From Paraburkholderia ginsengiterrae (GTDB lineage: Bacteria; Pseudomonadota; Gammaproteobacteria; Burkholderiales; Burkholderiaceae), in contig NZ_LXKA01000044.1 in the NCBI RefSeq assembly GCF_001645125.1, positions 62,001-126,000 on the forward strand: a stretch of DNA of 64,000 bases. The letters are read 5' to 3'. Position numbers and translations under genes: made by a program. Positions 21,702 through 40,650 of this stretch are shown here, one piece after another; positions within the stretch are counted from its first letter, which is position 1; each line of letters starts with the position of its first letter. A model generated the notes under the pieces. That model was given only the letters and a program-made list of their open reading frames with translations, was not told the origin of the DNA and made no database searches.

Positions 21702-22760
21702 CTATATCACGCGTAGCCGCTCCCACTTCAGATCTGAAAAGCAGGGACCTTGCGTGGCTTCACTGAACTTCACGTCATTGTGTTCGCCGTTCCATTCCAT
21801 GACCTGAACGTTTTCATCCGCGTCGACGGTCACATCCCATCCTATGCATCGTGCGAAAGGAATCTTCTGGTGCAGGTCGAGCACCATCGCAACACATTGA
21901 GAAAATGCGGGGATTTTCACGCCGGAGAAGCGGACTCCGGAATCGGGATGCATCTCGGTCGCACCCCAGTCATTCATATAACCCTGACGAGCCAGTTCAC
22001 CGGTAGTCAGATCAACCGGCACACAGATATCGTGATCGCTCTGAACGTGGGTATCGTTCGCTCGTCCCAGCCGAAAAAAGCAGGCCCGGATAGAGATACG
22101 GCCGGCGTCGTCAACGACCGTCGTAAAGCGCAGCGTGGCTACCGGTTTTGAAGCAAAAGCATCGAACGCGTGGTGCTGCGCGATGAATTTTTGAATCACT
22201 CCGTTGCCAAGCGATCTGATGGTTTCGCGGTCGAAATTCCCTTTATCAAAGATGTGGACGCCCTTGCCCTGCCCCGAGCCGTCCAGCTTGAATACGATTC
22301 TGTCGCACTGCCCAAACACGAAGCTCTCGAACTCACGCGCTGGAATCACGATGCGTTCGTCCGTGAAAAACAGGCCATTGGCAAAATAGGCGATATCCGG
22401 AAACGCATCGCTGCCGAAGATCAGCCGCGACATCGACTTCAGGTCGGACAACTTGCCGTAAGACCCCTTCATGCTCGGCACTACCACGCTCCCGTAGTAG
22501 TTGTCCGGGATCCAGCCTTCCTTGAACGTTCCACTGAACACCGTATAGACGCGAAGCCACGGCGCGTAGATAGCGCTTCCGAACACATCGCGCGCGTAGG
22601 TATCGGCCAGCTTCAAGTTCTCCGGATCGGCCTTGCCGTTCTTCTTCTCCAGACATTGAAGGACTCGCCCGGCCTGGGCGCGATGATCCCGGTGAAACTT
22701 GAATTGTCCCGCCCTTTTTAGCGACCGCCTGACCGCGCGCTCAACATCGAATGACATCAT
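21702..22760 (-). CDS. Sugar-transfer-associated ATP-grasp enzyme
   Basis: About 352 residues. The conserved core (IVFKLDGSGQGKGVHIFD for the nucleotide-binding loop, LRFTTVVDD, and the metal-binding end VQVMEWNGEHNDVKFSEATQGP) fits the sugar-transfer-associated ATP-grasp family (ATPgrasp_ST, PF14397). Members lie in polysaccharide clusters and are thought to ligate a carboxylate to an amino or hydroxyl group, but the reaction is not established. It follows the undecaprenyl-phosphate transferase gene by 75 bases in the same operon. Start unclear: GTG at 22766 or ATG at 22760/22757, all within three codons. A second, different ATP-grasp enzyme lies at 38316. Confidence 0.75.
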   Translation of the reverse strand: MMSFDVERAVRRSLKRAGQFKFHRDHRAQAGRVLQCLEKKNGKADPENLKLADTYARDVFGSAIYAPWLRVYTVFSGTFKEGWIPDNYYGSVVVPSMKGSYGKLSDLKSMSRLIFGSDAFPDIAYFANGLFFTDERIVIPAREFESFVFGQCDRIVFKLDGSGQGKGVHIFDKGNFDRETIRSLGNGVIQKFIAQHHAFDAFASKPVATLRFTTVVDDAGRISIRACFFRLGRANDTHVQSDHDICVPVDLTTGELARQGYMNDWGATEMHPDSGVRFSGVKIPAFSQCVAMVLDLHQKIPFARCIGWDVTVDADENVQVMEWNGEHNDVKFSEATQGPCFSDLKWERLRVI

Positions 22761-22835
22761 CTCCACCCTGCGACTATGGCAGCAGATTCCAATGCGCTGC
22801 TCGCTGTACCGTAATACTGAGGCCTCGATCTAAGC

Positions 22836-24218
22836 TTAGTAAGCGTTAGGATGATGCAGCCCCTTGAATACGGTCGCTAATATGATTTTTACGTCGAGTC
22901 TGAATGACCAGTTCCTGAGGTAATAGAGATCATGCGCGACACGGCCCTCCATCTTCTCGATGCGATCGGTCTCGCCACGAAAGCCGTTGATCTGCGCCCA
23001 CCCGGTAATGCCAGGCTTGATGCGGTAACGATGAATGTAGCCGGAGACAATGTTCTGATAGAGATCGTCGTGCTCAAGCGCATGAGGCCGAGGTCCCACC
23101 ACCGACATGTCGCCGCGCAGCACGTTGAAGAACTGCGGCAGTTCATCAAGGCTCGTGCGGCGAAGGAATCCTCCCACTTTGGTGATACGCCGGTCGCCGC
23201 GTGTCGCCTGCTCGAGCACGCCGTGCTGCTGTTCATGCAGACGCATGGTGCGATACTTGTAGATCGTGAAGACGCGCCCATCCGCGCCTTTGCGGCGCTG
23301 CTTGAAAAATACCGGTCCGGGTGAGCTCAGCTTGACAGCAATCGCGCAAGCCAGCATGACAGGCGATACCGCGATCAAAGCGCCAAGTGCAAAAAGACGG
23401 TCAAACAATTCCTTCTGCACCAATGCATTGGGCGGCAACGGCGACGCCGCTAAATTGATGGCCGGTACACCCAGCAGGTCCGTGACACTTCCTTCAAACA
23501 GAGCCAGCGTACGCACGTCGGGCATAAAGCGTATGTTGATCAGATCATTGCGAAACTCGTTGACCAGCTTGAGTATCGTGCGCTCCTCGGTTAGCGGCAG
23601 CGCGAGCCACACTTCGCCAATGTGCTGTTCACGAACGTAACGGGCAAAGCTTGCATGCTCATCGAAGACACGCACCGCTGCCGTGGGAACAGCCGTGGTA
23701 TCGGACCGCACCTTATACAGCGCGTTGGGGCGAAAGCCGGCGGCCGGATTCATCTCCATCTTGCGAATGATCTCATCGCAATGGTCTCCGCACGCCGCCA
23801 TGGCCACCCGCTGCAAATTCAGGCCAGCGTTACGCGCCCGGCCGAGCAACACGTGCGTGGCCATGCGGCAGGCAATCATCAACCCGCCGGAAATACCTGT
23901 CCAATATACAAACCAGAGACGCGAAACGAAGTCGATACGATGCAGCGAGAACATCAGTGCCATCGCACAAGCCTGTACGATCAGCCAGCCGAGGGCGACT
24001 TGCCCCGTCAACACCCTTTTGGATCGTCCGCGCCAGGATTCGTACACGCCGACTGCCGGAAACACAGCCAACGAAAACGCTGCGGCGAAAGCCACGAACG
24101 CAAAATAGAACCCCCGTTGAGAAGCATCGTCGAAGCGAATCCTGGAGGCCACGAGTGCGCCAGCCAGGATCATCGTCACGTCGAACAGTCTTGCCATCAG
24201 GCCCGTAATCAATCGCAT
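22836..24218 (-). CDS. wcaJ: Undecaprenyl-phosphate sugar-1-phosphate transferase
   Basis: A 460-residue initiating enzyme that transfers glucose-1-phosphate (or galactose-1-phosphate) from UDP-sugar to undecaprenyl phosphate. Four or five N-terminal transmembrane helices (residues 10-115), a central cytoplasmic domain and the C-terminal catalytic PHPT domain (FFKQRRKGADGRVFTIYKYRTM, then RTSLDELPQFFNVLRGDMSVVGPRPH) are clear. It is closest to the BceB/WcaJ glucose-type branch of Burkholderia EPS, but specificity is not proven. The ATG at 24218 has AGGGGG nearby. The gene lies downstream of manC in the same operon. It anchors repeat-unit assembly at the inner membrane. Confidence 0.9.
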   Translation of the reverse strand: MRLITGLMARLFDVTMILAGALVASRIRFDDASQRGFYFAFVAFAAAFSLAVFPAVGVYESWRGRSKRVLTGQVALGWLIVQACAMALMFSLHRIDFVSRLWFVYWTGISGGLMIACRMATHVLLGRARNAGLNLQRVAMAACGDHCDEIIRKMEMNPAAGFRPNALYKVRSDTTAVPTAAVRVFDEHASFARYVREQHIGEVWLALPLTEERTILKLVNEFRNDLINIRFMPDVRTLALFEGSVTDLLGVPAINLAASPLPPNALVQKELFDRLFALGALIAVSPVMLACAIAVKLSSPGPVFFKQRRKGADGRVFTIYKYRTMRLHEQQHGVLEQATRGDRRITKVGGFLRRTSLDELPQFFNVLRGDMSVVGPRPHALEHDDLYQNIVSGYIHRYRIKPGITGWAQINGFRGETDRIEKMEGRVAHDLYYLRNWSFRLDVKIILATVFKGLHHPNAY

Positions 24219-24258
24219 CGCAGCCCCCTGGAGCATGCACCGGTTAACCGGCGCTGAT

Positions 24259-25773
24259 TTAGCCGCAACGTCCGTACTGATCGTCAAATCTGACGATGTC
24301 GTCTTCGCCGAGATACGTTCCCGACTGAACCTCGATAATCTGAAGCGGAACGCAGCCAGGATTTTCCAGCCGGTGACGTATGCCGAGCGGAATGTAGGTC
24401 GACTCGTTTTCACCGAGAAGGAATTGCTCTTCCCCACGCGTGACCATGGCTGTGCCGCTCACGACGACCCAATGCTCCGCGCGGTGGTGGTGCATCTGCA
24501 ATGACAGGCGCGCGCCTGGCATCACGACGATTCGCTTCACCTGAAAGCGGTCACCATGATCGATCGAATCGTAGAAACCCCACGGCCTGCGGACTTTTCT
24601 ATGCGCGTCGGCTTCCGGCGACTTCTCGCGCTTGATGCGCGAAACCAGTCCCTTGATGTCCTGCACGTGCGAACGGTCGACCACCAGCACGGCATCGTCG
24701 GTATCGACCACGATCGTGTTGTTCGTGCCGACACAGGCAACCAGCCGGCCCCCCTGCGAGCGTGCGTAAGTGGCGGTTGCGCCTTCGAACAATACGCGCC
24801 CGTTCGAAGCATTGCCGCACTCGTCCTTTTCCATCGCCTGCCAGACCGCATCCCACGACCCGAGATCCGACCAACCCGCTTCAAGCGGTACGACGATGGC
24901 GCTGAATGGCGGATCGGGCTTTCCTACCTGCTCCATCACCGCGTAATCGATCGAATCGGATGGCGAACGAAGGAAATCCGCGGCCTCGGGAATGACGCAT
25001 TCATCCGTTTTCTTGGCGCCTCGATATGCTTCGACACACGCAGCGTGCATCTCCGGCTGGAACCGCTCGATCACGGCGAGCCAGACGGACGAACGAATCA
25101 CGAACATGCCGCTGTTCCACCAGTAGTTGCCGGAACTGACATATTGCGCGGCGAGTTCCGCGGCAGGCTTCTCGACAAAACGCTCCATGCGACGCGCGCC
25201 ATCCGGAAACGCCTCACCCAGGCGGATATAACCGAATCCCGTGTCGGCGTGATCGGGTGGAATGCCCAGCGTGGCGATCTCGCCCTTCAACGCATGACGT
25301 GCCGCAATTTCGATCGACCGATGAAGCGCCTCGAGATTCGCAATCGCGTGGTCCGCGGGCATGGCAACCAGGATGGCATCCTGCCCATCCTCGCATGCAG
25401 CGAGCGCGGCAAGCGTGAGCGCGGGCGCAGTGTCACGACGAGCGGGCTCGACGATGATGCGAGCATTCACCCCAATTTCGCGAGCCTGCTCGTAGGTCGC
25501 GAAGTAATGCTCCGCCCCGCATACGATGAGAGGATCCGCCGCGATCTCCCATGTCGTGCTGAAGCCCGCCATGCGTCCCATGGTGGCCTGTAGCAATGTC
25601 TGGTTGCCGATTACGTCGATCAGCTGTTTCGGAAACTGCTCGCGCGACACCGGCCACAGGCGAGTACCCGATCCGCCTGCAAGTATCACCTGCACGAGTG
25701 GGGGATAGTCCGCGACAACCTGATCCGCCACTTCGTTATCCGTCTGGTCAGCAACTACCGTAACCTTGCTCAT
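24259..25773 (-). CDS. manC: Mannose-1-phosphate guanylyltransferase / mannose-6-phosphate isomerase
   Basis: A 504-residue bifunctional enzyme. The N-terminal nucleotidyltransferase domain has the signature LAGGSGTRLWPVSREQFPKQ (from residue 31) that binds GTP, and the C-terminal cupin has a type-II phosphomannose-isomerase pattern (HHHRAEHWVVVSGTAMVTRG, later TYIPLGIRHRLENPG). It makes GDP-mannose for the EPS. The ATG has AAGGAG seven bases upstream. It is the first gene of a four-gene minus-strand operon (manC, wcaJ, ATP-grasp, small protein). The manA/manB, gmd or ugd genes needed for precursor supply are not here, so they must lie elsewhere. The polymer therefore probably contains mannose or a derivative. 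Confidence 0.93.
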   Translation of the reverse strand: MSKVTVVADQTDNEVADQVVADYPPLVQVILAGGSGTRLWPVSREQFPKQLIDVIGNQTLLQATMGRMAGFSTTWEIAADPLIVCGAEHYFATYEQAREIGVNARIIVEPARRDTAPALTLAALAACEDGQDAILVAMPADHAIANLEALHRSIEIAARHALKGEIATLGIPPDHADTGFGYIRLGEAFPDGARRMERFVEKPAAELAAQYVSSGNYWWNSGMFVIRSSVWLAVIERFQPEMHAACVEAYRGAKKTDECVIPEAADFLRSPSDSIDYAVMEQVGKPDPPFSAIVVPLEAGWSDLGSWDAVWQAMEKDECGNASNGRVLFEGATATYARSQGGRLVACVGTNNTIVVDTDDAVLVVDRSHVQDIKGLVSRIKREKSPEADAHRKVRRPWGFYDSIDHGDRFQVKRIVVMPGARLSLQMHHHRAEHWVVVSGTAMVTRGEEQFLLGENESTYIPLGIRHRLENPGCVPLQIIEVQSGTYLGEDDIVRFDDQYGRCG

Positions 25774-26400
25774 TTAAAGCTCCTTTACATTGAATCCAGG
25801 CGGCGAACAAAAAACTCACGTCCGTGCACAATGCATTGCACTTTCAATTGCGCCGTCGGCTTCTTGTGTGATCAATGACAGGACAACCGTGTCAGGCGGG
25901 CAAAGCCCGCCATTCAGTTCACGGTGACTTAGGTGCACGCGCCGTGCCACCCATCAAGCTCGACGCGCAAAGCGTGGACAGCATCGCGGTTCGATCGCAG
26001 CGGCATCATGTTCAACAGCAACGACGCGCATCGACGTTCTACCGGCAAGCTGGTGCCACAGAGCAGTACTTGATGATCTCCATCATAGTCACGACTACGT
26101 TGCACCACAGCATTTCTGGCGCGAACCGTTGATGTTTTGGCTCTGATCGTTAGAGTTCCTTTTCTCAAGCGAACTAAACAGGCGTGATTTCGAGGCTTGA
26201 TGAGATAAGCAGGTTGGAGATTCACCAATAACCGTGGTACCTTTCACGTGACCGAGTTGATGCTTTGCTTCGAAAAACAAAGCATCATTTTCTTCTGTTG
26301 TCCGTAATATGCTGGTTTTTGGCGTTCAGTTCCATGTTCCCCCTGCGAGCGTGGAAAGTTCTTCAACAAACTGTGCGCCATCCGCTTATCTGGAGCCGCA
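25774..26400. other. Divergent gap between manC and the polymerase gene
   Basis: A 627-base gap holding the promoters of the manC operon and of the wzy gene. A perfect TCACGTGA dyad lies near 26244. Frame 26260-26400 encodes a plausible membrane helix that may be a lost 5' part of wzy (see finding). No RNA gene is visible. Confidence 0.5.
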
Positions 26401-27690
26401 ATGGCTTATATATCTCTATTCGCACTATTCCTGACGGTCACCAATCTGGTGCCAGTGAGTGCGGCTGGGTTGGTCCCTCTCGTCTTTCTTCCGTGGCGAT
26501 TTTTTGGACGCACCTACCCCACGTTTATGACGCCGCTTGCCGCGTTCACCGTTTTTGTGGTGATTTCAACGCTGCTCTACGATCCCGGCTCGTTCCTGGA
26601 ATTTGATTTCTATCGGCGCGACGGCAATTATTTCATCTCCTATGCGCCCATTTTTGCCGGTTGCCTGTACACGCACCGCTGGGATCTGAATAAAGTTCTT
26701 CGCACGTTCTTTGTGTTCGCGGTGCTGATCAACCTGCCGCCCTACGCGTATTACATCATCCACAACGGCCTATTCAGCATCTTCGCGCATGCCGACGACA
26801 GTTTCGGCAGCTATTTCATCGCGCGCAATGCGGCAGGTGGCTTCTTCGCCATGCTGTTCTGTTTGGGGGTCGCATGCTATCTGCAGAGGCGCAGCAAGTT
26901 GCTGCTGGCCCTGCTCGTCGTCAATGCGCTCATGCTGTTTTCCACCTATAGCCGAGGCTCACTGCTGGGCACGCTTGTCGTCCTGCCCTACCTCTACTTC
27001 GGCCGCAAGCGGTGGATACTGGCGACCCTGATCGCCTGCCTTCTGCTGGGCTCCATCGCGATGGCGATCTACCATACGGATCCGAGAGTGGACTATATGG
27101 GCTATCCCTTCACCATCGAGAATCAGAACGCCAAAGTCGCCAATCTGGACATCCGCTATGAATGGCTATGGCCGCGGGCCCTTGCGTACTTCCAGCAGAG
27201 CCCGGTCGTGGGCCTCGGTTTCGGCTCGTTCGACGATCACATCGGCAGCGTGACTTCCTACTTCAATCTGCTGGGCATCCCTTCGGACATGATCATCGAG
27301 CACAGCGACTCGCATGCCCACAATTCTTACCTGAACTTCCTTGCGGAGCTCGGTGTAACCGGTCTTGCCCTCATGCTGCTCTTCTACTGGAGGCTGATTG
27401 AATGGAGCAAACACGGCGCAGCCGCCGCTGCGCTATTTGGCGGCGGACAGAACTTCGCCGCGTTCAGGTTCGTTGAGATTTCGTCGGTTTGCCTGCTGGT
27501 CATGGCCGCGACCGAACATCGCCTGGTGTCGCCATCGAATGTGCTGATCCTTGCTCTCGTCATCTCCCTGCTGCTGGCAGCGCGGTCGGTCAACGCCGCC
27601 GCAATCGATTATCTCCAGCGAGGGGCAAACAATGGATCCGCCGGCGCATTTCCGCTCATGACTCGACGTCAGCGGGGTGACGCTGGTTAA
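26401..27690 (+). CDS. wzy: Wzy-like polymerase / O-antigen ligase family protein
   Basis: A 429-residue protein with about ten transmembrane segments and a large periplasmic loop carrying the Wzy_C-type pattern (IEHSDSHAHNSYLNFLAELGV, near residue 300), typical of the O-antigen polymerase / ligase family. Within a Wzx/Wzc cluster it is most likely the EPS polymerase that joins lipid-linked repeat units in the periplasm. The ATG at 26401 has GGAG six bases upstream. The N-terminus may be incomplete: a frame ending just before it encodes a further helix (finding). Its 3' end overlaps the convergent glycosyltransferase gene by 35 bases. Confidence 0.8.
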   Translation: MAYISLFALFLTVTNLVPVSAAGLVPLVFLPWRFFGRTYPTFMTPLAAFTVFVVISTLLYDPGSFLEFDFYRRDGNYFISYAPIFAGCLYTHRWDLNKVLRTFFVFAVLINLPPYAYYIIHNGLFSIFAHADDSFGSYFIARNAAGGFFAMLFCLGVACYLQRRSKLLLALLVVNALMLFSTYSRGSLLGTLVVLPYLYFGRKRWILATLIACLLLGSIAMAIYHTDPRVDYMGYPFTIENQNAKVANLDIRYEWLWPRALAYFQQSPVVGLGFGSFDDHIGSVTSYFNLLGIPSDMIIEHSDSHAHNSYLNFLAELGVTGLALMLLFYWRLIEWSKHGAAAAALFGGGQNFAAFRFVEISSVCLLVMAATEHRLVSPSNVLILALVISLLLAARSVNAAAIDYLQRGANNGSAGAFPLMTRRQRGDAG

Positions 27691-28846
27691 CGCGTAGCGG
27701 ACCCATGGCAGGATAAGGAAGGAAGTGTTCGAGGCCGCCATAGGGAAGCCGCGAGTCGACAAAGTCCGTGAGCGCGGCGCGGAAATTCTCCGAGGAGAAG
27801 CGCTCCGCGTTTCTACGGCATGCGCGGGGGTCGAACAAGCCGACATTGCGCTCAAACCGGCTTACCGCGGCCAGCAAAGATTCCGGCGTCTGTTCACCAA
27901 AGAACACACCAGTTGGCCGCTCAAGCGGCAGTCCGACAACGGACTCAAGCGCACCGCCTCTGCCGAATGCAATGACCGGCGTTCCGCATGCCTGAGCTTC
28001 GACGACGGAGATACCGAAATCCTCCTCCGCGGCAAACACAAACGCACGAGCACGCCGCAAATGATCGATCAGCGCATCGAACGGCTGATGACCCAGGAGT
28101 GTCACGTTCTCGCCCGCCACAGCCTTGATCTTCTTCATCTCGGGACCATCGCCAATCACCACGAGCCGGCGCTCAGGCGTCTGTGAAAAAGCCCGTACGA
28201 TCAGATCGATGCGTTTGTACGGCACCATGCGCGACGCCGTTACGTAGTAGTTGTCTTTCTGCACGCACATCGACATGTTTGCCAGATCGACGGGTGGGTA
28301 AATGACCGTTGCGTCACGCTGATAGGTCTTTCTGATCCGCCGGGCGATGAACTGCGAATTCGCCAGAAGGTGGTCCACGCCATTGGCCGAGCGCGAGTCC
28401 CATCCACGAATGTAGTGAAGCAGCACGCGCGCCATGAGGGACTTGATACCGGTGTTCAGATGGGCTTCGTTGAGATATTGATGCTGCAGGTCCCACGCAT
28501 AGCGAATGGGGGAATGGACATAACTGATGTGGACCTGGTTCGGTCCGGTAAGCACACCCTTCGCAACCGCGTGCGAACTGGAAATCACCAGATCGTAGCC
28601 GGACAGATCGACTTGTTCGATCGCGAGCGGCATCAGCGGCAGGTATGCACGGTAGCGCTTGCGCGCCAAAGGCAACTTTTGAATAAAGGAGGTTTTGACG
28701 GATTTCCCCTTCACACAGTCACGGTCCTCCAGAAAATCGACCACCGAGAAGATGTCCGCTTTCGGGAAACATTCGATGATATTTTTCAGTACCTTCTCCG
28801 CGCCACCCGAAACCACCAGCCAATCGTGAACAATAGCGACCTTCAC
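27656..28846 (-). CDS. GT4-family glycosyltransferase
   Basis: A 396-residue GT-B fold enzyme. The N-terminal acceptor domain begins MKVAIVHDWLVVSGGAEKVLKNI; the C-terminal donor domain has EDFGISVVEAQACGTPVIAFGRGGALESVVG (residues about 280-310), the E-x7-E motif of retaining GT4 enzymes. It adds a sugar, plausibly mannose, to the lipid-linked repeat unit. It is the last gene of the operon that starts at 36315 (kinase, GT1, glycosidase, GT2, flippase, GT4). It follows the flippase by 53 bases. Confidence 0.85.
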   Translation of the reverse strand: MKVAIVHDWLVVSGGAEKVLKNIIECFPKADIFSVVDFLEDRDCVKGKSVKTSFIQKLPLARKRYRAYLPLMPLAIEQVDLSGYDLVISSSHAVAKGVLTGPNQVHISYVHSPIRYAWDLQHQYLNEAHLNTGIKSLMARVLLHYIRGWDSRSANGVDHLLANSQFIARRIRKTYQRDATVIYPPVDLANMSMCVQKDNYYVTASRMVPYKRIDLIVRAFSQTPERRLVVIGDGPEMKKIKAVAGENVTLLGHQPFDALIDHLRRARAFVFAAEEDFGISVVEAQACGTPVIAFGRGGALESVVGLPLERPTGVFFGEQTPESLLAAVSRFERNVGLFDPRACRRNAERFSSENFRAALTDFVDSRLPYGGLEHFLPYPAMGPLRVNQRHPADVES

Positions 28847-28899
28847 TTCGACCTCCCGTGAGATTTAAAGCTGACATCCTTCTTCTTCCACCATCCGGT

Positions 28900-30216
28900 T
28901 CACTCGCCCTTTGCAGAACGTGTCTCAGGCCGCAGCCCGCATGCCACCCGGACCATGCCCAGCGCTCGCGTGCCTCCCGGCACGAGGCTAATCAGTTCGA
29001 GCCGAATCACGACGCCCATCAGCATGACCGATAACATCGCCTCGCCAATCACCCGGGCTAGTGCAATTCCCGTGGCGCCGTATCGAGGCGCAAGAATGAG
29101 CGCTGCGACGAGATTGATCAGGCCCGAGGCGATGCCCACGACGGCCAGCTGGCGATCCTTCTTGCGCGGCACGAATACGTAACCCGCCACGAACTCGTTA
29201 AACGCCGCGAACGGAAACATCCACGCAAAAATCTGCAGAACGTGCGCGCTGGGTTCAAACGCGGCGCCAAGGATCAAGGGCAGCACGAAAGGCGACAGCG
29301 CCATCGCACCGCAGAAAATCAGCAGTCCGTACGCCATCAGCAGGGCCGCGCCGTGCCGGGTCGTTTGGTGCGCACCCTGCACGTCGCCCTGTGCGAGCTG
29401 CCGCGTGATGGTGGGAATGAACACCTGAGCGGCCGGCCCCATCAGCGCGAGCGCGATCGTCGCAAAGCGCTCAGCCGCGCCGAAATAGCCGACCTGTTCG
29501 GGCGTGGACAATAGGGTCAACAGATAGGTGGACGACGCCGTGAATACGACCGAGCCGGACGAGTAAAGGAAAAGCATCGTCGAGTTGCGCACGAGCGGAA
29601 CGATGCCTGCCAACCTGAGACGCGGCCAACCCAGTTGATAGATCGTCAGACCGTAAGAGATGACCGAGGACGCCACTCCTGCAACCAGCAGGCTCGCAAG
29701 TACCCATACCGCGTCATCGGGTCCTTTTACGAGGGTCAGCACCAGCACGAGGCTCAGGAGAAAACCGAACACCTCAATGACAATAGGAGTTCGAAACTGG
29801 TGACGCCCCTGGAACATCCAACCGAGGTTCATGCCGGAGACGATGCCCAGCAGCGTAGCCAGCACGCCGATCAGCGGGCGTTGGGACAGGACCGGTGAAC
29901 ACATCGTAGCAATCAGGCCGATGCAGCCGCCCACCAGGCCATGCACGATGCGCGCGCTCACATGCAGCGAGAAAATGTCGTTGCACTCCTCCACCGATTG
30001 CGCTTTCGACACGTCGCGCATACCAACAGGGCTAAAGCCGTAGTTGACGAGCATCCATATCACGTTCATCAGCGACATCGACGCCAGCACGCGTCCGTAG
30101 CCGGCCACACCGAGCATCCTGCCGTAGAACGGCACCACGATGATGAGGTACACGTACCTCATCAAATAGCCGGCGTAGACAAATCCGACAATCCGAACGC
30201 TCTTTTTTCTATCCAT
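28900..30216 (-). CDS. wzx: Wzx-type lipid-linked repeat-unit flippase
   Basis: A 438-residue membrane protein with about twelve transmembrane helices spread evenly, of the polysaccharide-transporter (MOP/PST) superfamily. The start YAGYLMRYVYLIIVVPFYGRML and the GRVLASMSLMNVIWMLVNYGFSPVGMRDVS segment are typical of Wzx. It moves undecaprenyl-PP-linked repeats to the periplasmic face. The ATG at 30216 has GGAGGA five bases upstream; the frame extends to 30348, but that stretch overlaps the upstream glycosyltransferase gene. Confidence 0.9.
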   Translation of the reverse strand: MDRKKSVRIVGFVYAGYLMRYVYLIIVVPFYGRMLGVAGYGRVLASMSLMNVIWMLVNYGFSPVGMRDVSKAQSVEECNDIFSLHVSARIVHGLVGGCIGLIATMCSPVLSQRPLIGVLATLLGIVSGMNLGWMFQGRHQFRTPIVIEVFGFLLSLVLVLTLVKGPDDAVWVLASLLVAGVASSVISYGLTIYQLGWPRLRLAGIVPLVRNSTMLFLYSSGSVVFTASSTYLLTLLSTPEQVGYFGAAERFATIALALMGPAAQVFIPTITRQLAQGDVQGAHQTTRHGAALLMAYGLLIFCGAMALSPFVLPLILGAAFEPSAHVLQIFAWMFPFAAFNEFVAGYVFVPRKKDRQLAVVGIASGLINLVAALILAPRYGATGIALARVIGEAMLSVMLMGVVIRLELISLVPGGTRALGMVRVACGLRPETRSAKGE

Positions 30217-30244
30217 GCAGTCCTCCGTGTACGCGTGCTGAACT

Positions 30245-31255
30245 TCAGCGCCCAGCCACGCGACGGCGGGCAAGCGGGTTGGCGATATAACGCACCACAA
30301 AGTCAGAAAGTGGCGAGTAAGGGACAAGACACATGCTTGAAAGCACAAGCGTGCCGAGTTTCTTCTTGAGGCTCCAGAATGGATTCGCCACGATGGTGTG
30401 TAGATAGTGACTGGAATCCCGCATCATCCACCGCCACCGTTCGATGAGCGTCGCCCGATACACACCCGAACAGAAGCGAGCCTTCTCGAGTGCAAAGTCG
30501 TGGAACGTTGGCGAAAGCTCCACCTGGAGCCGGGCTCTCGCGATGTTCCGCAGTATTGCCCATCGCTGGTTGACAGCTTCGGGCGCTCTATTGAGTTGCT
30601 CGGAGTTCGCGAACGCCACCGTCGCACCTCCCGCGTTGTGTACGCGATAGCCTCCCAACGACTGTCCAACCGCAGCGACACGGCCTACCAGCGCCACACC
30701 GTAGATCGCGTAGAAGTCCGCGCCGTAACGATTGATGTCCGCTTCCGGTACCGGAAAAATGCGTCTAAGCGCGCTCACGCTGTAGGCATTGCCCGAGGCA
30801 GGCGGCGACGGATACAGCCAGCCGCCCAGCAACAGCTTTCTGCAATCCGCGGGCGGTTCGTTGTGGGGCACATAGGCACCTGTAGGCGCGCCCGTGCCGT
30901 CCATGACGTCGAGGCGAAACTGGACCTTTGCACAGTCACCGGCTGCGAAGAACCGCATCACTTCTGAGACGGCACCTGGATACAGGACATCGTCGGAATC
31001 GAGAAAAATCACATATTCCGTATCAAGTATCTCGATCGCCTGGTTATAGGCGGAAACCTGGCCACCGTTATCCTTGAGCAGCGACGAGACGCGTGTGCCG
31101 AACTTCTCGATGATCGCGCGCGACCCGTCGGTCGAACCATCGTCGATCACCAAGACGTGCGTCGCCGGATAGTCTTGCGCGAGCGCCGACTCAATCGCAG
31201 TGGCCAGATATTGCGCGTAGTTGTAGTTGCAGATTACGACAGTGACGTGGTTCAT
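30245..31255 (-). CDS. GT2-family glycosyltransferase
   Basis: A 336-residue GT-A fold enzyme. Sequence features: VVICNYNYAQYLATAIESAL, LVIDDGSTDGSR and the metal-binding FLDSDDVLYPGAV (DxD) in the N-terminal half. It transfers an activated sugar with inversion. The start at 31255 is chosen by the protein start MNHVTVVICNYNYAQ; ribosome site weak. It lies 120 bases downstream of the glycosidase gene and 28 bases before the flippase gene. Confidence 0.85.
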   Translation of the reverse strand: MNHVTVVICNYNYAQYLATAIESALAQDYPATHVLVIDDGSTDGSRAIIEKFGTRVSSLLKDNGGQVSAYNQAIEILDTEYVIFLDSDDVLYPGAVSEVMRFFAAGDCAKVQFRLDVMDGTGAPTGAYVPHNEPPADCRKLLLGGWLYPSPPASGNAYSVSALRRIFPVPEADINRYGADFYAIYGVALVGRVAAVGQSLGGYRVHNAGGATVAFANSEQLNRAPEAVNQRWAILRNIARARLQVELSPTFHDFALEKARFCSGVYRATLIERWRWMMRDSSHYLHTIVANPFWSLKKKLGTLVLSSMCLVPYSPLSDFVVRYIANPLARRRVAGR

Positions 31256-31375
31256 GATATTTCGACGCCATCCAAAGATTCGATCATTCGCCTTTCGACG
31301 ACGGTGAAACGACTCACACATGCTGCAAGCGTTCAAGCCACTGAGGCTGAACCTCGCCTTCATTGATTCCGTTTT

Positions 31376-32836
31376 CTACGCAACGCCGCGAATCACCAAG
31401 TAGGCAAGATGCTTGGGCGGTTTGTTGTCGGCTCCATTGACTCGATCCGGCACCCTGAAGCGGATCTTCAGCGCCTGGTCTTGCCACGCCAGAGCAACAT
31501 CGTCGCGAGCGCTCGCCGTACCGGTGAGTGCGTCGACGAACTCCACCCTTGCATTGCGTGGAGACTGCAGCTTGATTCCCCCCACGCTGACGGTTTGCCA
31601 ACCCGGATCGGCGCTCACCTGCATGACGACGTCGTGGCCCGAACGCAAGGCACTTCCGGAAGCCCCTGAATCGAACTGCAACGGCTTCGAAAAGCTCGCT
31701 AACGATCCGTTCGCAATCTGGTTCAGCACGACCAGGCTCCGCCCGGATGCGTTGTATGTCCGCCTCGGTGGACCGCGATGCGTCAGGCGGAAAGACTCAT
31801 ACCCATCCCAGTGGTACACCATCGATAGATACTTGTTCGGGTCGTCCCAGTTTCTATCGAGCGCCCACACCGCGAAGTCGAAAAAATAGCGTGGCAAATA
31901 GTGCGGATCCTTCATGTACGCGTCGCCGATTTCCGTTTGCCAGACACCCCGCGCCGGTCCGTTCCTGACGTACTGCTGATACAGCGAATCCAGCTCGGCA
32001 ACCTGGAGGTAGTGCGTGTCGATGTAATCGACCCAATCCAGCATTCGCTCCTTCAGCGTCGGGCTCCTGTACTCAAGCCATTTCCTGAAGTTATCGAGGC
32101 CGCCCTGATCCGGCCAGCCACCGTAGACAACGTACGCGTGATATTTGCGAATGATGCGCGCCGCCGGAATATGAATGCGCTCGACGTAGTCCTGCATGGC
32201 ATGCTCGTACGGTTTCGAGGTCTTCACGTTTCCGTCGGCGTCCGGGCCATTCCAGAAGGTCGCCTGAGCCAGTCCGCCCGACAACCTGCCCGCTGCCTCA
32301 TTCCAGATCTGGAAATAGCGCAGGTTGTAAGGCGGCGCCGAATAGGTGCGAACCACTGCGTCGACATAGCGTTCCCATGCCTCCACGTCTACCGGCGCCG
32401 AATTGGAATCACCAGGCACACTCGCATTCCAGCCCGGCGTGTAGCCGAGTTGCAGGAGCGAGCCGATGCCATGGCGGTCATTCGCGATCAATGCGGGCGG
32501 CAAGTCACTGTCGAATGCGGAACTGGTCTTGTCGATGCGCATAACGTCTTGTGGGCCATCTGGCTGACCAGGACCTACCGAACCGCGCCCCCAGCTAATA
32601 CCCATTGCGCGCCACATCTGAACATCGCCGGCGGCGCCCGCCCAGCCGTTCGCGCCGATCAACTCCGCTATCCTGCGGCCACGCCCGCCGGGAAAGCGGG
32701 ACTCGGGCGTCAATGACGGCGCTGTCTTACTACGAGCGAGTGGAGTCCACGCTCCTGCGAGTGCCGCAAGTGCGCGCAACGCTCGCCGTCTGCCGGCGAT
32801 GCTCGTGAATCTGTCCCTCCGCCTCACTCTAAACAT
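31376..32836 (-). CDS. Putative clan-A glycoside hydrolase of the EPS locus
   Basis: A 486-residue protein. The N-terminus is Arg-rich (RRRALRALAALAGAWTP), possibly a Tat-type signal. The TIM-barrel part carries YFQIWNEAAGR with Glu180 as the acid/base candidate (the N-E pair of clan GH-A) and GVWQTEIGDAY with Glu302 as the nucleophile candidate, and a C-terminal beta domain. This resembles GH39/GH5-type glycosidases. Within the EPS operon, three bases downstream of a GT1 gene, it is probably a secreted polymer-trimming or chain-length hydrolase, not a biosynthesis step. Family assignment comes from motif positions only. Confidence 0.65.
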   Translation of the reverse strand: MFRVRRRDRFTSIAGRRRALRALAALAGAWTPLARSKTAPSLTPESRFPGGRGRRIAELIGANGWAGAAGDVQMWRAMGISWGRGSVGPGQPDGPQDVMRIDKTSSAFDSDLPPALIANDRHGIGSLLQLGYTPGWNASVPGDSNSAPVDVEAWERYVDAVVRTYSAPPYNLRYFQIWNEAAGRLSGGLAQATFWNGPDADGNVKTSKPYEHAMQDYVERIHIPAARIIRKYHAYVVYGGWPDQGGLDNFRKWLEYRSPTLKERMLDWVDYIDTHYLQVAELDSLYQQYVRNGPARGVWQTEIGDAYMKDPHYLPRYFFDFAVWALDRNWDDPNKYLSMVYHWDGYESFRLTHRGPPRRTYNASGRSLVVLNQIANGSLASFSKPLQFDSGASGSALRSGHDVVMQVSADPGWQTVSVGGIKLQSPRNARVEFVDALTGTASARDDVALAWQDQALKIRFRVPDRVNGADNKPPKHLAYLVIRGVA

Positions 32837-32839
32837 GGA

Positions 32840-33955
32840 TTAGCCCGTCGACGCGCTGGGTGCAAAGTTCGACAACTGATCGCCGGCACGGCCGTACAGG
32901 ATCTGCAGTACTTTTCGCGCCGAGTACTCCCAGCGAAACGCACGCGCATGAACCACGCCCAGTGTTCGATAACGTTGCCGCAACTTCGCATCAGCCATCA
33001 TCTCCGAGATCTTCGCCGCGATATCGTCCGCCGACGTCGCGTCGCAGTACATGGCGGCATCGCCGCACGCTTCCGGCATGGATGTCCGCGACGAAGCGAT
33101 CACCGGGCATCCGCAGTACATCGCTTCGAGTGGTGGCAATCCAAATCCTTCGTACAACGATGGGAAAACGAGGCAGGCTGCATTCTCATACAGCGACTTC
33201 AACTCGCCATCCGGCACGAAACCCGCCCACACAATCTGGCTGGAATGAGCCCGTTGCTCCACTTCCTCGCTATTGAAAATACGCTTATTGCGGCCACCAA
33301 CAACGACGAACTTCAGATCCCTCAAGTGCCCAAGCTTTTCGGTCGCGTCCAGAACACGCTGCAGATTCTTTCGCGGATCGAGGCTGCCGACGATCACGCA
33401 ATACGAGTCCCTTTCCAGAGCCAAACGCTCGAGGACTGCTGGATTCGCTATGACCCGGTCCAGATGATCCGCGCCGGGCGTGATTACCGCGACACGTGAC
33501 TCATCGATCTTCAGGTGATGGCAGATCCGCTTCTTCGAGTAATCCGAAACCGTCAGAATCAAAGGCTTCGTTCGACGCAGCATGGCGAAGCAAACGCGGT
33601 ACCAAAGCCTGAACTTCCGCGAGAAGCCTTGAGGTACATCGTAGATCGCCATGTCGTGAACCATTACGACCTGTCCGCGCTTGAACATCGGATTGGTATT
33701 GCACAGATTGAGAAGCGTCATCCCTCTCGCAGCAATGGGCAGCGTGATCTGCTCCCAAAGCGTGCCGCGCAACCATGGATAGCACCGCTTGCGCTTAAGG
33801 TGTGCGCCCGGCTCAACAACGTTCTGCGGCACAAAGACGTCCAGTTCTCCTCCAGGCGCTGTGCTCATCTGCATCGCCCTGGCAAGTTCATACGCCACGC
33901 GTTGAACGCCGGTGACCGCCTGTGAGGTGAACTTTCCATTGATTGCAAAGGCCAT
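32840..33955 (-). CDS. GT1/GT4-type glycosyltransferase
   Basis: A 371-residue GT-B glycosyltransferase. It begins [29 protein letters not shown] and has the donor-site [24 protein letters not shown] (E-x7-E type). Its N-terminal GVQR motif resembles mannosyltransferases (WbaZ/WsaF-like). The ATG at 33955 has CGGAGA nine bases upstream; a TTG at 33982 and the overlap with the kinase stop (33979) were rejected. It adds a sugar to the lipid-linked repeat unit. Confidence 0.85.
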
Positions 33956-33978
33956 CAGTTTTCTCCGTTCGACGGCCA

Positions 33979-36315
33979 TCAATGCGTTGCTTCGGCATCG
34001 CCGAAATCGCTGGCATAGTTCGTCACGTAGCTGTAATTTCTCGTGCTTCTCAGGACAGGGATGCCATTGAAAACGGCACCGGCAATGCGCCCTTCGGCGC
34101 GCTCCATCTTCTTGATGGTGTCCGAGATTTCCTGCTCGCCTTGCATGCCCGAGCGCAACACGAGCAGGGACGAACCCGCTTCGCTCGCGATAATGGAGGC
34201 GTCAGTGACGGCGAGAAACGGCGGCGTATCGATGATCACCATGTCGTACTGGCCGGCGAGCCACGCCAATAGATCCTTGAAATAGGGGTTCATCAGCAAC
34301 GCGGCGGGGTTCTCCGGCCGTACGCCGCACGACATGAATGTCAAACCATTGATGCCTGTCGAGCGTAATGCGTGACGTGCACCGAGCCGGCCCGACAGCA
34401 CCTCGGAAAGCCCGCCACGGTTGCTTTCGCCGAACAACGAGGCGAGGTGGCCCCGGCGCATATCGGCGTCGATCAGGAGGACGCGCGAGCCGATCTCCGC
34501 GTGCAGCATCGCGAGGTTCGCCGCAACAAAGCTCTTTCCCGCGGCTGGCGTCGGTCCGATCACCATCAGAAGGTTGTTGCGCGCGTGCGCAAGATCGCGC
34601 GCCACTGCTGTGCGCACGTCACGAAGCGCCTCGACCGACGTGTCGTTCGGATATCGCGCGGCGAGAACCTTCGTGTGCTCGATCACACCGGGCTCTGCTA
34701 CACCCGCGTCGGCAGCACGGTCAACGTTACGGATATCGTCCGCGCCGCGTGACAATGGCTGACTGGCACTCCCTCTCATGCCTGGCAGTGCTTTACGGAC
34801 GGCGCCGAGACGGTCGAGCAGCGATTGCTGCTGACTGAACAGGATCTCCCCAAACACTGGCACGCTCATGCGACTTTCCACGTACCTCGGGTCGGTCACT
34901 CCGGTCATCACGTGGCGGCGCATAAAGACCAGCATGACGCCGGACAGAAGCCCAAGTACCAGGCCGCCCGTCAGCACGAGCGGGGGTTCTGGCTTAACCG
35001 GACGATGCGGCGTGACTGCGGCGTCGACGATATGCGCGCCGCCCGTCGTGCTCGCGCGCCGCACCTGCAATTGCTCGGCTTTCTGAACCATCCCGAGGTA
35101 AATCGTTTCCGCAACTTTCTGCGCGCGGAGGAGATCGACGCTCTGACGTTCGGACGACGGCATGCCATTGAAATGGCCGTCGAACTGCCCCTTCGCGGCC
35201 TTCAGTTGCGAGAGTTGCTGGTCGACTGTCTGCACCCAGCGGCTATCCGGCGTGTAGCGCTCCAGCAATTGCGTACGCTGTATCTGCAGGCTGGCGATCT
35301 GCTTGTCGAGGTCCAGCCCACCCTGGAGATAGGCTTGTGCTTCGCTCGTGGGCTGCATGGACTGCGCCGACCCACGGAACTGCTTCAACGCATCCTCAGC
35401 CTTCCTGAGATCCGCGAGCAAACGGGGGAGTTCGCCATTAATGAACGCCAGCGTGGTCGTATCATTGGCTTGCCGGGCCGCAATTGCATAAGCAAGGTAC
35501 TGATCGCCCAATGCATTGGCGATCTCGGTAGCCTTCTCCCGACTCTTGTCCGTGTACTCTACTTGAATGAGGCCCGAGTCTTTCGTCTTGTCGCCGACCT
35601 TCACGAGGTTTCCAAAGCGCTTGACGGCATCGATCTCGTTCCAGCGAATGACCTCAAATTTCGTACCCGGCCGCGCGTCCAACTGCTTTACAAGCATCGA
35701 AACGCCGTTGTTCCGGACAGCTGTGCCCGCTACCCCTTTTACAAGCAGCTGATCTGACGGACCCCGCAATTCGTACGCGCCATTGCCGAGAGCGATCAGT
35801 GTCAGTTTCTCTTCCTCCAGATCCTGCGGCACATCCAGCGATCCGACCTGAACGTGCTCTCCGCCCCACGCGAACGACTTCAGTCCGAACCACGGCGCCG
35901 ACGGCTGTCCTGGCGTTGCAAAATTGGCTGCGATGTCTCCCAGCAGCGGCACCGTGTGCGGCGTCACTGACACGTCCAGGCGATATTTCTGGATGACCGG
36001 CTCGAGCACCGCGCGGCTGCGGATCACAGCCATTTCAGTCGCCGTCTGTGGTGCGGGCGGCGGAAGGCTCTCCTGATTCTGCAGGGCGAGACCGAGCGCA
36101 TTAGGTTCTGGCGGGTCGACACGCAACAGCACGTCGGCTGAGTATATCGGCGTGGCAATGAGCAGATAAGCCACCGCCAGGGTCAGCACGACGACCGCCG
36201 TACCGACGATCTCCCAAATGTGATCCCGCATCAGTGTAAGCATCGCGCCAGCACTGAGCTGACCACGATCCGTGCCAGAGGAGGGATAGAGCGAATTTGC
36301 AGGGTAGTAGTCCAC
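33979..36315 (-). CDS. wzc: Polysaccharide-biosynthesis tyrosine autokinase (Wzc/BceF type)
   Basis: A 778-residue inner-membrane kinase. It has an N-terminal Wzz domain with transmembrane helices near residues 37-53 and 447-465, and a C-terminal BY-kinase domain with Walker A GPTPAAGKS (587-595), Walker A' VLLIDADMRRG (612-622) and Walker B MVIIDTPP (692-699). A terminal Tyr cluster (Tyr761, 763, 767) offers autophosphorylation sites. It controls EPS chain length and export. I take the GTG at 36315, where AAGGA lies eight bases upstream; the frame open to 36444 has no site. The cognate tyrosine phosphatase and OPX exporter are not in the window. Confidence 0.9.
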   Translation of the reverse strand: MDYYPANSLYPSSGTDRGQLSAGAMLTLMRDHIWEIVGTAVVVLTLAVAYLLIATPIYSADVLLRVDPPEPNALGLALQNQESLPPPAPQTATEMAVIRSRAVLEPVIQKYRLDVSVTPHTVPLLGDIAANFATPGQPSAPWFGLKSFAWGGEHVQVGSLDVPQDLEEEKLTLIALGNGAYELRGPSDQLLVKGVAGTAVRNNGVSMLVKQLDARPGTKFEVIRWNEIDAVKRFGNLVKVGDKTKDSGLIQVEYTDKSREKATEIANALGDQYLAYAIAARQANDTTTLAFINGELPRLLADLRKAEDALKQFRGSAQSMQPTSEAQAYLQGGLDLDKQIASLQIQRTQLLERYTPDSRWVQTVDQQLSQLKAAKGQFDGHFNGMPSSERQSVDLLRAQKVAETIYLGMVQKAEQLQVRRASTTGGAHIVDAAVTPHRPVKPEPPLVLTGGLVLGLLSGVMLVFMRRHVMTGVTDPRYVESRMSVPVFGEILFSQQQSLLDRLGAVRKALPGMRGSASQPLSRGADDIRNVDRAADAGVAEPGVIEHTKVLAARYPNDTSVEALRDVRTAVARDLAHARNNLLMVIGPTPAAGKSFVAANLAMLHAEIGSRVLLIDADMRRGHLASLFGESNRGGLSEVLSGRLGARHALRSTGINGLTFMSCGVRPENPAALLMNPYFKDLLAWLAGQYDMVIIDTPPFLAVTDASIIASEAGSSLLVLRSGMQGEQEISDTIKKMERAEGRIAGAVFNGIPVLRSTRNYSYVTNYASDFGDAEATH

Positions 36316-37292
36316 TGGATTGATCCTTCCATATTCGATGAGCAGAACGGCGAACGGATACCGCTGCGCCACACCATCAGTTCGAGATCTGGCACCGCCG
36401 CCGACAGTGGATTCGACACGGCCTGCGGCACCTCGTAGTGACATGCAGGGTCAGGTTGGATGACTTCAGTGCATTCGTACTACTAATGTTTAATCGAGAA
36501 ACCTAAAGCCCGGCTTCATTGCGGGCCGCGAACAATGCAGCCACGCTGCCTTGCCAACAGGCGCATATATACCAATCGAACTACCTGATATCGACAATGC
36601 CGGCATTCACATGCGCGGACATCTCTGAGAAGGCTTTGCCGGCCGATCACAGCTTCGTGCGATCGCGCATGCTGACCAGTCAAGGCCTTCGGCGGTTTTG
36701 GAGAACGGCAATTGGTATGTCCCTGCCCACAGCGGCCGGACAATGTCTTAAAGCAGATTACTCGACAAACAGAATAATTCAACCAACCAGCAGAGCAAAC
36801 CCATCCATTCATGTTGCAGTGAAGCATAGAACAAAAAATCACGTCATATCGCGAACGGCATAAATTCGGGTATTAATGGCCGATTTAGTTGATCGTATTA
36901 CAGATGGAATCGCTTCAGAAAGCGTTGTTGCGACCTGTAAGCGCTGTAACAGAGTTGTACAGATGAAGTGCGGCGCCGTGACAGAAGCTTAGCAACTGTC
37001 TCTCCCCGAGAACGCTCGTTCTACCCTGATCACCTTGCGCAAACCCTTGCCAGACCGGCCTTAACGACCCACCACCGGCATCAATCCGGTGCAAGGCCGC
37101 TCACTGGAAACGGAAAAAGTTTCGGGCCAGAAGTAGAATTAAAGCGCTTATTCATGGAATTTCAAGTAAGAATTCCACAAGCCATGACAATTACGCCAAA
37201 ACACCCTGAAATTCCGGCCAAATTCGTCTCGCAATTCTCGCTGCACTAATCTCTTCACGTATTGTGATTGCGTATTTGGAGAAATTAGCCAT
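36316..37292. other. Divergent regulatory gap of the EPS locus
   Basis: A 977-base gap between the kinase operon (minus) and the GlxA/AraC regulator (plus). AT-rich around 36780-36920. It contains repeats of CTGTA (see separate entry). No gene of credible length is present. It very probably carries both EPS promoters. Confidence 0.6.
36935..36962. promoter_or_regulatory. CTGTA repeats, candidate EPS operator
   Basis: CTGTAA occurs twice nine bases apart (36935-36940, 36944-36949), and the second copy is part of an inverted pair CTGTA (36944-36948) and TACAG (36958-36962). The placement in the EPS divergent gap suits a binding site, perhaps for the regulator encoded to the right. Short elements like these can occur by chance. 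Confidence 0.35.
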
Positions 37293-38306
37293 ATGACTTC
37301 CACCAGTAATTTCGCGTCGCGCATCAATGAGCGTCAGAATGGGTTGAAAGCGGCGAAACACATTGGCCTCCTGATCTTCCAGGATTGCTCCATGCTGAGC
37401 ACCGGAGCCGTCAGCGATGCTTTCCGCCTTGCCAACGAGTTCGAAACCACGAGGGGTGACGAGCGTCCGTATCGGATCTCGGCGCTGTCAGACAAAGGCG
37501 GTCTGGTGACAAGTTCATCGAGCCTCCTGATCTGGACCCAGAGTCTCGAACGATTCAGCCTTGCCGATTTCCATGCGTTCTTTGTCGCTTGCCGTGACAC
37601 CGCGGAGACCGCGGAGTCCAACGGGCGCTTTCTTTCATGGATCTCTCGCCACGGATCAATTGCATCGCGTGGTATTCAGCAAGGAGCGAGTCTTGCCGTT
37701 GTGTGCAAGAACCCGCTGCAATCGACAGTGCCCGTCTTTTTCTTCGATGACGGGGGCGGTGGCGCAAGCAGCGGCAGCAGCGCGACGCCCACTGACCTTG
37801 CACTTGCGCAGATCGAGCACGACCTGAATTCGGACATCGCGCGAAAGATTGCCCGAGCGCTGCAAACGATCTACGTCGAGCGGGACAAGCCGGAACTGGA
37901 CGATGCGAGCATCATCACGACAGCCGACAAGATTCGCGAGTCAGCACGCTGGATCAAGGAAAACTACAGCAAGGCGATCTCAGTGGCCAAGGCGGCCGAA
38001 TCCGCCGCCATGAGCAAGCGCAATTTTCAACGTCGTTTCAAATACGAGTTCGGTATAACCCCGCTCGAGTACCTGCTGCGCACGCGCTTTGAAGTTGCCT
38101 GCACGTTGCTCAGAGGTACCGATTTGCCGGTCGACAAGATCGCGCGACGGTGCGGAATGGGCGACGGCAATCGACTCGGCCGGCTGTTCAAGGAGCGATA
38201 TGGCGTGTCGCCCACACAATTCCGCGCGCAGCAGCACATCGAGTCCGAGGAGCGACGGCTCACGCCTGAGGAGGTCTGGGTTACCTCGAGTGAGATCGAG
38301 CGATAA
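37293..38306 (+). CDS. GlxA-type AraC-family regulator
   Basis: A 337-residue regulator with an N-terminal DJ-1/PfpI-like sensor domain (HIGLLIFQDCSMLSTGAVSDAFRLAN, residues about 25-190) and a C-terminal double helix-turn-helix of the AraC family (SVAKAAESAAMSKRNFQRRFK and VDKIARRCGMGDGNRLGRLFKERYG, residues about 225-310). The first helix-turn-helix mediates DNA contact. It is the first gene of the plus-strand block (ATP-grasp, GT, propeller), and divergent from the autokinase, so it is the best candidate for the local EPS regulator. GGAGAAA precedes the ATG. Confidence 0.85.
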   Translation: MTSTSNFASRINERQNGLKAAKHIGLLIFQDCSMLSTGAVSDAFRLANEFETTRGDERPYRISALSDKGGLVTSSSSLLIWTQSLERFSLADFHAFFVACRDTAETAESNGRFLSWISRHGSIASRGIQQGASLAVVCKNPLQSTVPVFFFDDGGGGASSGSSATPTDLALAQIEHDLNSDIARKIARALQTIYVERDKPELDDASIITTADKIRESARWIKENYSKAISVAKAAESAAMSKRNFQRRFKYEFGITPLEYLLRTRFEVACTLLRGTDLPVDKIARRCGMGDGNRLGRLFKERYGVSPTQFRAQQHIESEERRLTPEEVWVTSSEIER

Positions 38307-38315
38307 GCGCACTGA

Positions 38316-39368
38316 ATGTCCGACCGCAGCTTCGCGGCTCCATCAGCCATGGATCGAGACATGACGACCAGCGACTCCGCGCAGTTCGACCTGGAGTCCA
38401 CCTCATCCAAATTTCCGCGCAAGGAAGCACCACTGCCCGAAATGATCGTAGAGGAACAGGTGAGCCACCCGTCGAAGGATCTGCATCGGCCAACGCAGCA
38501 GTCGGTTTCCATGATCAGGCGGTTCAAGGAGGCCGGCAAATGCATGCTGCCCGATGCCGTGTTTCTGAGTCTGCTACATCACAAGTGTATTGGCCGATAT
38601 CCGAATCTTTTGCACCCGGCCACTTTCAACGAAAAGATCCTGCAACGAAACCTCAGACCGGATCCCCGCTACATCGGTTTGGCCGACAAACTTTCGGTAC
38701 GCGCATATGTAGCCGCCAAGATTGGGGAGAAGCATCTGATACCGCTGATTTCAACGCCAGATGTATTGACGCGGGAAGTCTTCGACGCGCTACCTGCTTC
38801 CTTTGTCATGAAGGCGAACCACGGCAGCAATTTCGTCGAGGTTGTGCGAAACAAGTCCGAGACCTCGTTCGAACAGTTGCAGCTTCTCGCTGAACGGTGG
38901 CTGTCTACTGACTTCTACTACATTGCACGTGAACGCCATTACCGCGAGATCAAGCCACGTATCTACTTTGAGCAGCTCCTTCTGGACCATTCCGGCCAGA
39001 TACCGGCTGATTACAAAGTGCATTGTTTTGGCGGCCGGCCGGGACGTCCCATCATCTACATCCTGGTGATATCCGACCGGTTCGGCAACGCGACGCACGG
39101 CGATGTCTACGACGCCGACTGGAATCATCTCAACGTGGCGATCGGGCACTACAAACGGAGCACCGGACCCGCTCCGCGCCCGAAGAACCTGCAATCCGTG
39201 CTGGACATCGCAGCCACCCTATGTGAAGACTTTGACTATGTCCGCGTGGACCTGTACGCGCCGGACAACCAGGTTTTCTTCGGCGAACTTACCTTCACGC
39301 GGGGTGCAGGTGTGTTGCCTTTTACACCCGACAGTATCGACTACGAGTGGGGGCGATTGCTGAGCTGA
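38316..39368 (+). CDS. TupA-like ATP-grasp enzyme
   Basis: A 350-residue protein. The C-terminal 270 residues match the TupA-like ATP-grasp family (PF14305): ATFNEKILQRNLRPD, LADKLSVRAYVAAKIGE, ASFVMKANHGSNFVEVV, and the FFGELTFTRGAGVLPFTPDSIDYEWG terminus. TupA was described in teichuronopeptide biosynthesis of an alkaliphilic Bacillus; homologues in EPS clusters are thought to attach amino acids or other carboxylates to the glycan. The first 60 residues are polar and divergent. It starts 9 bases after the regulator gene. Function here is inferred. Confidence 0.8.
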   Translation: MSDRSFAAPSAMDRDMTTSDSAQFDLESTSSKFPRKEAPLPEMIVEEQVSHPSKDLHRPTQQSVSMIRRFKEAGKCMLPDAVFLSLLHHKCIGRYPNLLHPATFNEKILQRNLRPDPRYIGLADKLSVRAYVAAKIGEKHLIPLISTPDVLTREVFDALPASFVMKANHGSNFVEVVRNKSETSFEQLQLLAERWLSTDFYYIARERHYREIKPRIYFEQLLLDHSGQIPADYKVHCFGGRPGRPIIYILVISDRFGNATHGDVYDADWNHLNVAIGHYKRSTGPAPRPKNLQSVLDIAATLCEDFDYVRVDLYAPDNQVFFGELTFTRGAGVLPFTPDSIDYEWGRLLS

Positions 39369-40556: not shown

Positions 40557-40650
40557 AGGCCCGGCAGACGTCGCGTGGCGACCGTCATCTCCGCAAAGTC
40601 ACCCGAATTATTTCAGCCTCAGTAAAACTCTGCCCAGGAGAAAGACCTGC

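Follow-up and report, generated by a model that had tools for sequence, protein, structure and literature searches.

We have analyzed a stretch of 64,000 nucleotides (hereafter the window) from Paraburkholderia ginsengiterrae (contig NZ_LXKA01000044.1, positions 62,001 to 126,000) that carries an exopolysaccharide (EPS) gene cluster of the Wzx/Wzy type with two different ATP-grasp ligases (Table 1). One of them, called ST here, matched the Pfam family ATPgrasp_ST (PF14397) with 94.3 bits (cut-off 31.4) and is the gene next to that of the initiating transferase WcaJ. The other, TupA, matched ATPgrasp_TupA (PF14305) with 134.6 bits (cut-off 25) over positions 6–238 of the 241 in the profile, and is located behind a gene for an AraC-family regulator. 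A sequence-only reading of this DNA had proposed two ATP-grasp families in one EPS locus, and this holds, both proteins being over the Pfam cut-offs with complete catalytic residues. TupA was found where that reading had put it, at 38316–39368 on the plus strand. In the case of ST, the neighborhood of the initiating transferase was correctly described and the start given, 22760, is one of two possible ATG codons (the other is 22757), but the gene belongs to the minus strand, in an open reading frame (ORF) spanning 21702–22766; the plus-strand frame across it has five stops.

The two ligases

The alignment of ST covers positions 113–265 of the 278 in the PF14397 profile, roughly the C-terminal two thirds, and the N-terminal part is its own. 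The alpha-L-glutamate ligase-like family TIGR02291 gave 23.3 bits, far below its cut-off of 314.2. In the whole 8.53-Mb genome the profile search detected PF14397 once and PF14305 twice. Six residues were invariant in 57 ST sequences (K157, G164, R210, D308, E321 and N323) and nine in 16 TupA sequences from several phyla (K166, E206, E219, D232, K234, R310, D312, E324 and T326). From the ATP-grasp superfamily at large, we take these columns to be the ATP- and metal-binding residues. None was lost in either protein; such a loss in one of them is what the sequence-only reading had named as fatal to its proposal. The invariant catalytic residues rule out a dead ATP-grasp enzyme.

The AlphaFold2 model of ST had a mean predicted local distance difference test (pLDDT) of 92.3. 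A Foldseek search of the PDB gave, among the 50 best matches listed, biotin carboxylases, D-Ala-D-Ala ligases, PurK, PsnB and tubulin-tyrosine ligases, the best E value being 9.3e-07, with TM-scores by query length of only 0.30–0.47 among these matches. The predicted structure thus clearly places ST in the ATP-grasp superfamily but does not single out the closest reaction. The TupA model (pLDDT 81.6) was confident from about residue 60, and the first 57 residues are predicted to be disordered. Sequence searches of the PDB with ST and with TupA gave nothing useful, and there was no match in PHROGs.

Conservation of the pair in the genus

Among 145 genomes of the genus, PF14397 was found over its cut-off in 43 (14 more with matches below the cut-off only were dropped) and PF14305 in 59, including all of the 43, with a Fisher p of 8e-24 for the co-occurrence, uncorrected for relatedness or linkage. 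TupA was within 60 kb of ST in 40 of the 43. The search for clusters with both families, proposed by the sequence-only reading, was productive: in 39 of the 145 genomes, including that of the window, ST and TupA are on opposite strands and 15.6–20.5 kb apart. These 39 clusters have in common ST, WcaJ, ManC, Wzy, a GT4 glycosyltransferase, Wzx, a GT2 glycosyltransferase, a glycosidase-like gene, a second GT4, Wzc, the AraC-family regulator and TupA (read from a flank in L070), with the exceptions of the glycosidase-like gene, absent in L043 and at 34% identity in L037, and the regulator, absent in L041. Thirty-nine syntenic clusters rule out a chance co-occurrence, and the occurrence throughout the genus rules out an unusual one-off. 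One further candidate pair, in genome G014, was rejected, its ST being 54% identical and located outside the cluster. The nearest named ST was that of P. fungorum (86% identity), a close relative that also carries the cluster. A scan at the level of the order detected full-length ST in only 3 of 399 genomes, all from the family of the window; the other 22 matches were weak and partial.

The two ligases differ in how constant they are. When Wzy was used as the marker of the cluster, 56 clusters appeared in the 145 genomes; by hand count, 53 of these have a TupA no farther than 15 kb from Wzy, and 39 have ST at its place. As for the three other clusters, the contigs of G040 and G077 do not join and none was found in G120. 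Of the 53 TupA-bearing clusters, 14 have no local ST (also a hand count), so the pair is not an obligate unit. The profile detected no ST in 168 ORFs from 18 stretches of the 17 genomes with an ST-less cluster, four of which have an unlinked copy, and a search for a replacement in these clusters yielded only unrelated genes. On a WcaJ tree (52 rows, with a usable WcaJ in 13 of the 17 ST-less clusters) the absence of ST needs three changes, and the well supported branches force three, which points to at least three gains or losses of ST across the clusters. ST distances tracked those of WcaJ (Spearman 0.83), ManC (0.81), Wzy and Wzc (both 0.77), whereas TupA distances were more weakly correlated with those of the other cluster genes (0.50–0.64). 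This suggests that ST moves together with the WcaJ/ManC end of the cluster, TupA having a partly separate history.

Other genes of the cluster

The remaining features are collected in Table 1. The true start of WcaJ probably lies inside the GTG-started ORF, several relatives being called at about 459 amino acids. Inside the minus-strand block the sole plus-strand gene is Wzy, which overlaps the end of the neighboring GT4 gene by 35 bases (26401–28846); in one genome of the genus the Wzy gene is apparently in two pieces (G130:C8:73305-74443). The glycosidase-like gene gave no match in Pfam and no sequence match in the PDB. A second glycosidase-like protein, also recognized by eye, is found after the cluster (41723–43282), with a lipoprotein-like start and no Pfam match.

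Table 1. Features of the EPS cluster, with positions in the window.
Feature	Position	Strand	Basis or remark
ST, ATPgrasp_ST ligase (PF14397), 351 aa	21702..22757, alternative start 22760	minus	profile search, alignment, model
WcaJ-type undecaprenyl-phosphate glucose phosphotransferase	22836..24437	minus	TIGR03023, 488.8 bits (cut-off 410.75)
ManC, mannose-1-phosphate guanylyltransferase / mannose-6-phosphate isomerase	24259..25773	minus	profile search
Wzy-type polymerase (Wzy_C)	26401..27690	plus	profile search
GT4 glycosyltransferase	27656..28846	minus	profile search
Wzx flippase (Polysacc_synt)	28900..30348	minus	profile search
GT2 glycosyltransferase	30245..31363	minus	profile search
Conserved putative exported glycosidase	31376..32836	minus	W-N-E and T-E-I-G motifs read by eye
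GT4 glycosyltransferase	32840..33982	minus	profile search
Wzc tyrosine autokinase / chain-length protein	33979..36444	minus	profile search
AraC-family regulator	37293..38306	plus	profile search
TupA, TupA-like ATP-grasp ligase (PF14305), 350 aa	38316..39368	plus	profile search
Accessory gene, weak glycosyltransferase match below cut-off	39438..40556	plus	in 6 of 39 clusters
Accessory gene, no family	40393..41592	plus	in the same 6 of 39 clusters

Of the parts of a Wzx/Wzy locus, the initiating transferase, flippase, polymerase and Wzc were found, and Wza was absent among the locus ORFs scanned; five Wza genes are located elsewhere in the genome, all on other contigs. Aminosugar, amino-acid and uronate genes were likewise absent among these ORFs, in agreement with the sequence-only reading, which had noted no aminosugar or amino-acid pathway gene. 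The genome contains five strong matches to UDP/GDP-sugar dehydrogenases, on other contigs.

Relatives of ST in other bacteria

We scanned named genomes for two ST motifs and kept the best 80 of 116 relatives, a scan of near relatives and not a census. Again in this set ST was found within glycan clusters, in Flavobacteria, Paracoccus and others. In the flavobacterial loci L158 and L159, three genes downstream of ST are 92–99.8% identical and ST itself 71%, and in the upstream part one has TupA and the other a PaaK/CapK-like gene, so that ST appears to be part of an exchanged cassette. Such PaaK/CapK-like adenylating enzymes were seen beside or near ST at nine loci (e.g., L177:8642-9970), none of them with TupA in the DNA read. 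An asparagine-synthase-like amidotransferase (L178:13462-15360 and relatives) was noticed in clusters of Winogradskyella/Gelidibacter with ST and TupA.

The presence of TupA near ST is patchy outside the family. TupA was found at 12 of 32 ST loci and the PaaK/CapK-like gene at 9, without overlap within the 10 kb read, some of the contigs being short, which makes the absences of either gene soft. The TupA proteins beside ST were only 28–38% identical to that of the window, and the state of having TupA nearby needs seven changes on the ST tree. Both figures rule out a single ancestral ST-TupA unit.

Possible roles of the two ligases

The conserved pairing, with one ligase near-constant and the other optional, makes it probable that amide side groups are present on the polymer. 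We propose that both enzymes attach decorations to the repeat unit while it is being built in the cytoplasm. TupA would act like the TupA-like domain of Campylobacter jejuni Cj1438 (Cj1438C, see below), activating with ATP the carboxylate of a uronic acid on the lipid-linked glycan and joining it to a small amine. ST, added at the WcaJ/ManC end, would be a second, optional ligase making another carboxylate-to-amine bond on the same polymer; an ester made by ST seems less likely. The uronate and the amine would be supplied by genes elsewhere in the genome. The action of both ligases on this polymer and the type of bond are inferred; the two types of decoration suggested by the sequence-only reading, for example amino acids, are hypothetical as well. 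To the proposal as a whole, with both enzymes in these roles, we would give a probability of about one half. Amide groups alter the charge of an EPS and could thereby, on general grounds, affect biofilms and contact with plants. The near-identical loci with ST (39 of 56) and without it (17 of 56), nearly all of them with TupA, provide natural controls for the reaction of PF14397.

Several observations weigh against this proposal. Neither the window nor the 96 cluster stretches tested yielded a uronate-forming, an amine-forming or a Wza gene, the queries for uronate and Wza genes being the ORFs for UDP-sugar dehydrogenases and Wza from this genome (14 apparent Wza matches were all traced to one antisense ORF and are not real). 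The missing uronate gene also fits a TupA that makes some product other than a uronamide, such as an ester, or a product in which the carboxylate is not that of a sugar, as does the fact that, to our knowledge, the enzyme from Campylobacter is the sole relative tested. We regard such a product as very unlikely, given that the catalytic columns are common to TupA sequences from several phyla and that UDP-sugar dehydrogenases are encoded elsewhere in the genome. The other difficulties concern ST, some of whose relatives adjoin no glycan gene. The association with sugar transfer genes, present in this cluster, is absent in several free-standing relatives, copies of which were found in Caballeronia, Trinickia, Inquilinus and other Paraburkholderia. 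The 10 proteins from seven loci taken as neighbors of such copies included RuBisCO, a peroxidase, a chemoreceptor, a transporter, a kinase and a regulator, with no common theme, and the annotated Caballeronia region was no different. In Psychrobacter, a relative of ST (41% identical) is the only cargo of a plasmid of 4,864 bp (NZ_MN657125.1, L212), whose other two annotated genes are for mobilisation and replication. In the ST tree the copies from the clusters make up a single clade (99/95), nested inside the free-standing ones. All this would be expected if ST were a ligase for some other metabolite or envelope molecule, inserted by chance at the end of the EPS operon. We consider this unlikely, since once in the cluster ST has been retained through 39 genomes, tracking WcaJ and ManC, and is found again in the glycan clusters of other bacteria.

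The data also allow ST to act on the product of TupA, which would attach a first group and ST a second one onto it, making ST dependent on TupA or, elsewhere, on the PaaK/CapK-like enzyme. The distribution within the genus is as expected from such a dependence, with TupA in 43 of the 43 genomes with ST and 16 genomes with TupA and no ST, and all 14 further Burkholderiaceae genomes with ST that were searched hold 2–7 TupA genes, mostly unlinked (TupA is beside ST only in the genome of L139). That TupA and the PaaK/CapK-like gene never occur together within the 10 kb read points in the same direction. Of 31 searchable genomes outside the family, 10 have ST and TupA no more than 5 kb apart; among the initiating transferases of these genomes, 5 of 89 are that close to TupA (four fragment rows were dropped). 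At 10 kb the figures were 11 of 31 and 12 of 89, but counted by genome the control also reached 11 of 31, so that ST stands out from the control only at the shorter distance. Besides, 20 of the 31 genomes had any TupA at all and 11 had none, and the counts ignore relatedness, 6 of the 12 loci with TupA being from Winogradskyella/Gelidibacter and the TupA background of Caballeronia and Trinickia being left out. The distances of ST and TupA correlated at only 0.56, with no sign of special co-evolution, a value that tells against our proposal as well. We consider a stepwise side chain rather unlikely. A broader version, tentative and rather unlikely, is that ST and TupA are a portable two-enzyme module, in which ST acts after a partner that activates the carboxylate, namely TupA in this cluster and a PaaK/CapK-like enzyme in other loci. 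The result would be an amide side chain of two parts on the exopolysaccharides of bacteria, and the specificity of ST would be swapped together with the variable sugar cassette.

Comparison with known systems

The TupA of Bacillus halodurans (teichuronopeptide), which we take to be the name-giver of PF14305, works on a Gram positive cell-wall polymer, unlike the exopolysaccharide of the window. For PF14397, a literature search by family names (PF14397 ATPgrasp_ST / TIGR02291) gave no paper, no published reaction and no characterised ST member. The view of the sequence-only reading that neither family has a settled reaction is out of date as regards the TupA-like family. Cj1438C, an amidoligase domain of the HS:2 capsule system of C. 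jejuni studied by the Raushel group, is reported to form an amide at C6 of glucuronic acid, consuming ATP and taking either (S)-serinol-phosphate or ethanolamine-phosphate as the amine, and this amidation must come before the next sugar transfer (PMC11800379). The resemblance is that of a TupA-like ATP-grasp enzyme in a polysaccharide cluster. Cj1438 carries the domain in one protein with a GT2 glycosyltransferase, while TupA in the window stands alone beside the AraC-family gene. In other genomes of the genus TupA is fused behind a GT4 glycosyltransferase (L013:13-2250 and L018:1480-3630), an arrangement resembling that of Cj1438. In the C. jejuni system the HAD phosphatase Cj1435 removes the phosphate from the amide, whereas the locus studied here showed no such phosphatase and has a second ATP-grasp family.

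Amide-linked substituents are found in other bacterial polysaccharides. A Psychrobacter capsule is reported to have amide-linked lactate, and in the Vibrio polysaccharide VPS, a biofilm EPS, glycine is amide-linked to a C6 carboxyl (PMC11637428). VPS would thus be an amide-decorated EPS like the one proposed here, the likeness being in the chemistry and not drawn from the VPS genes.

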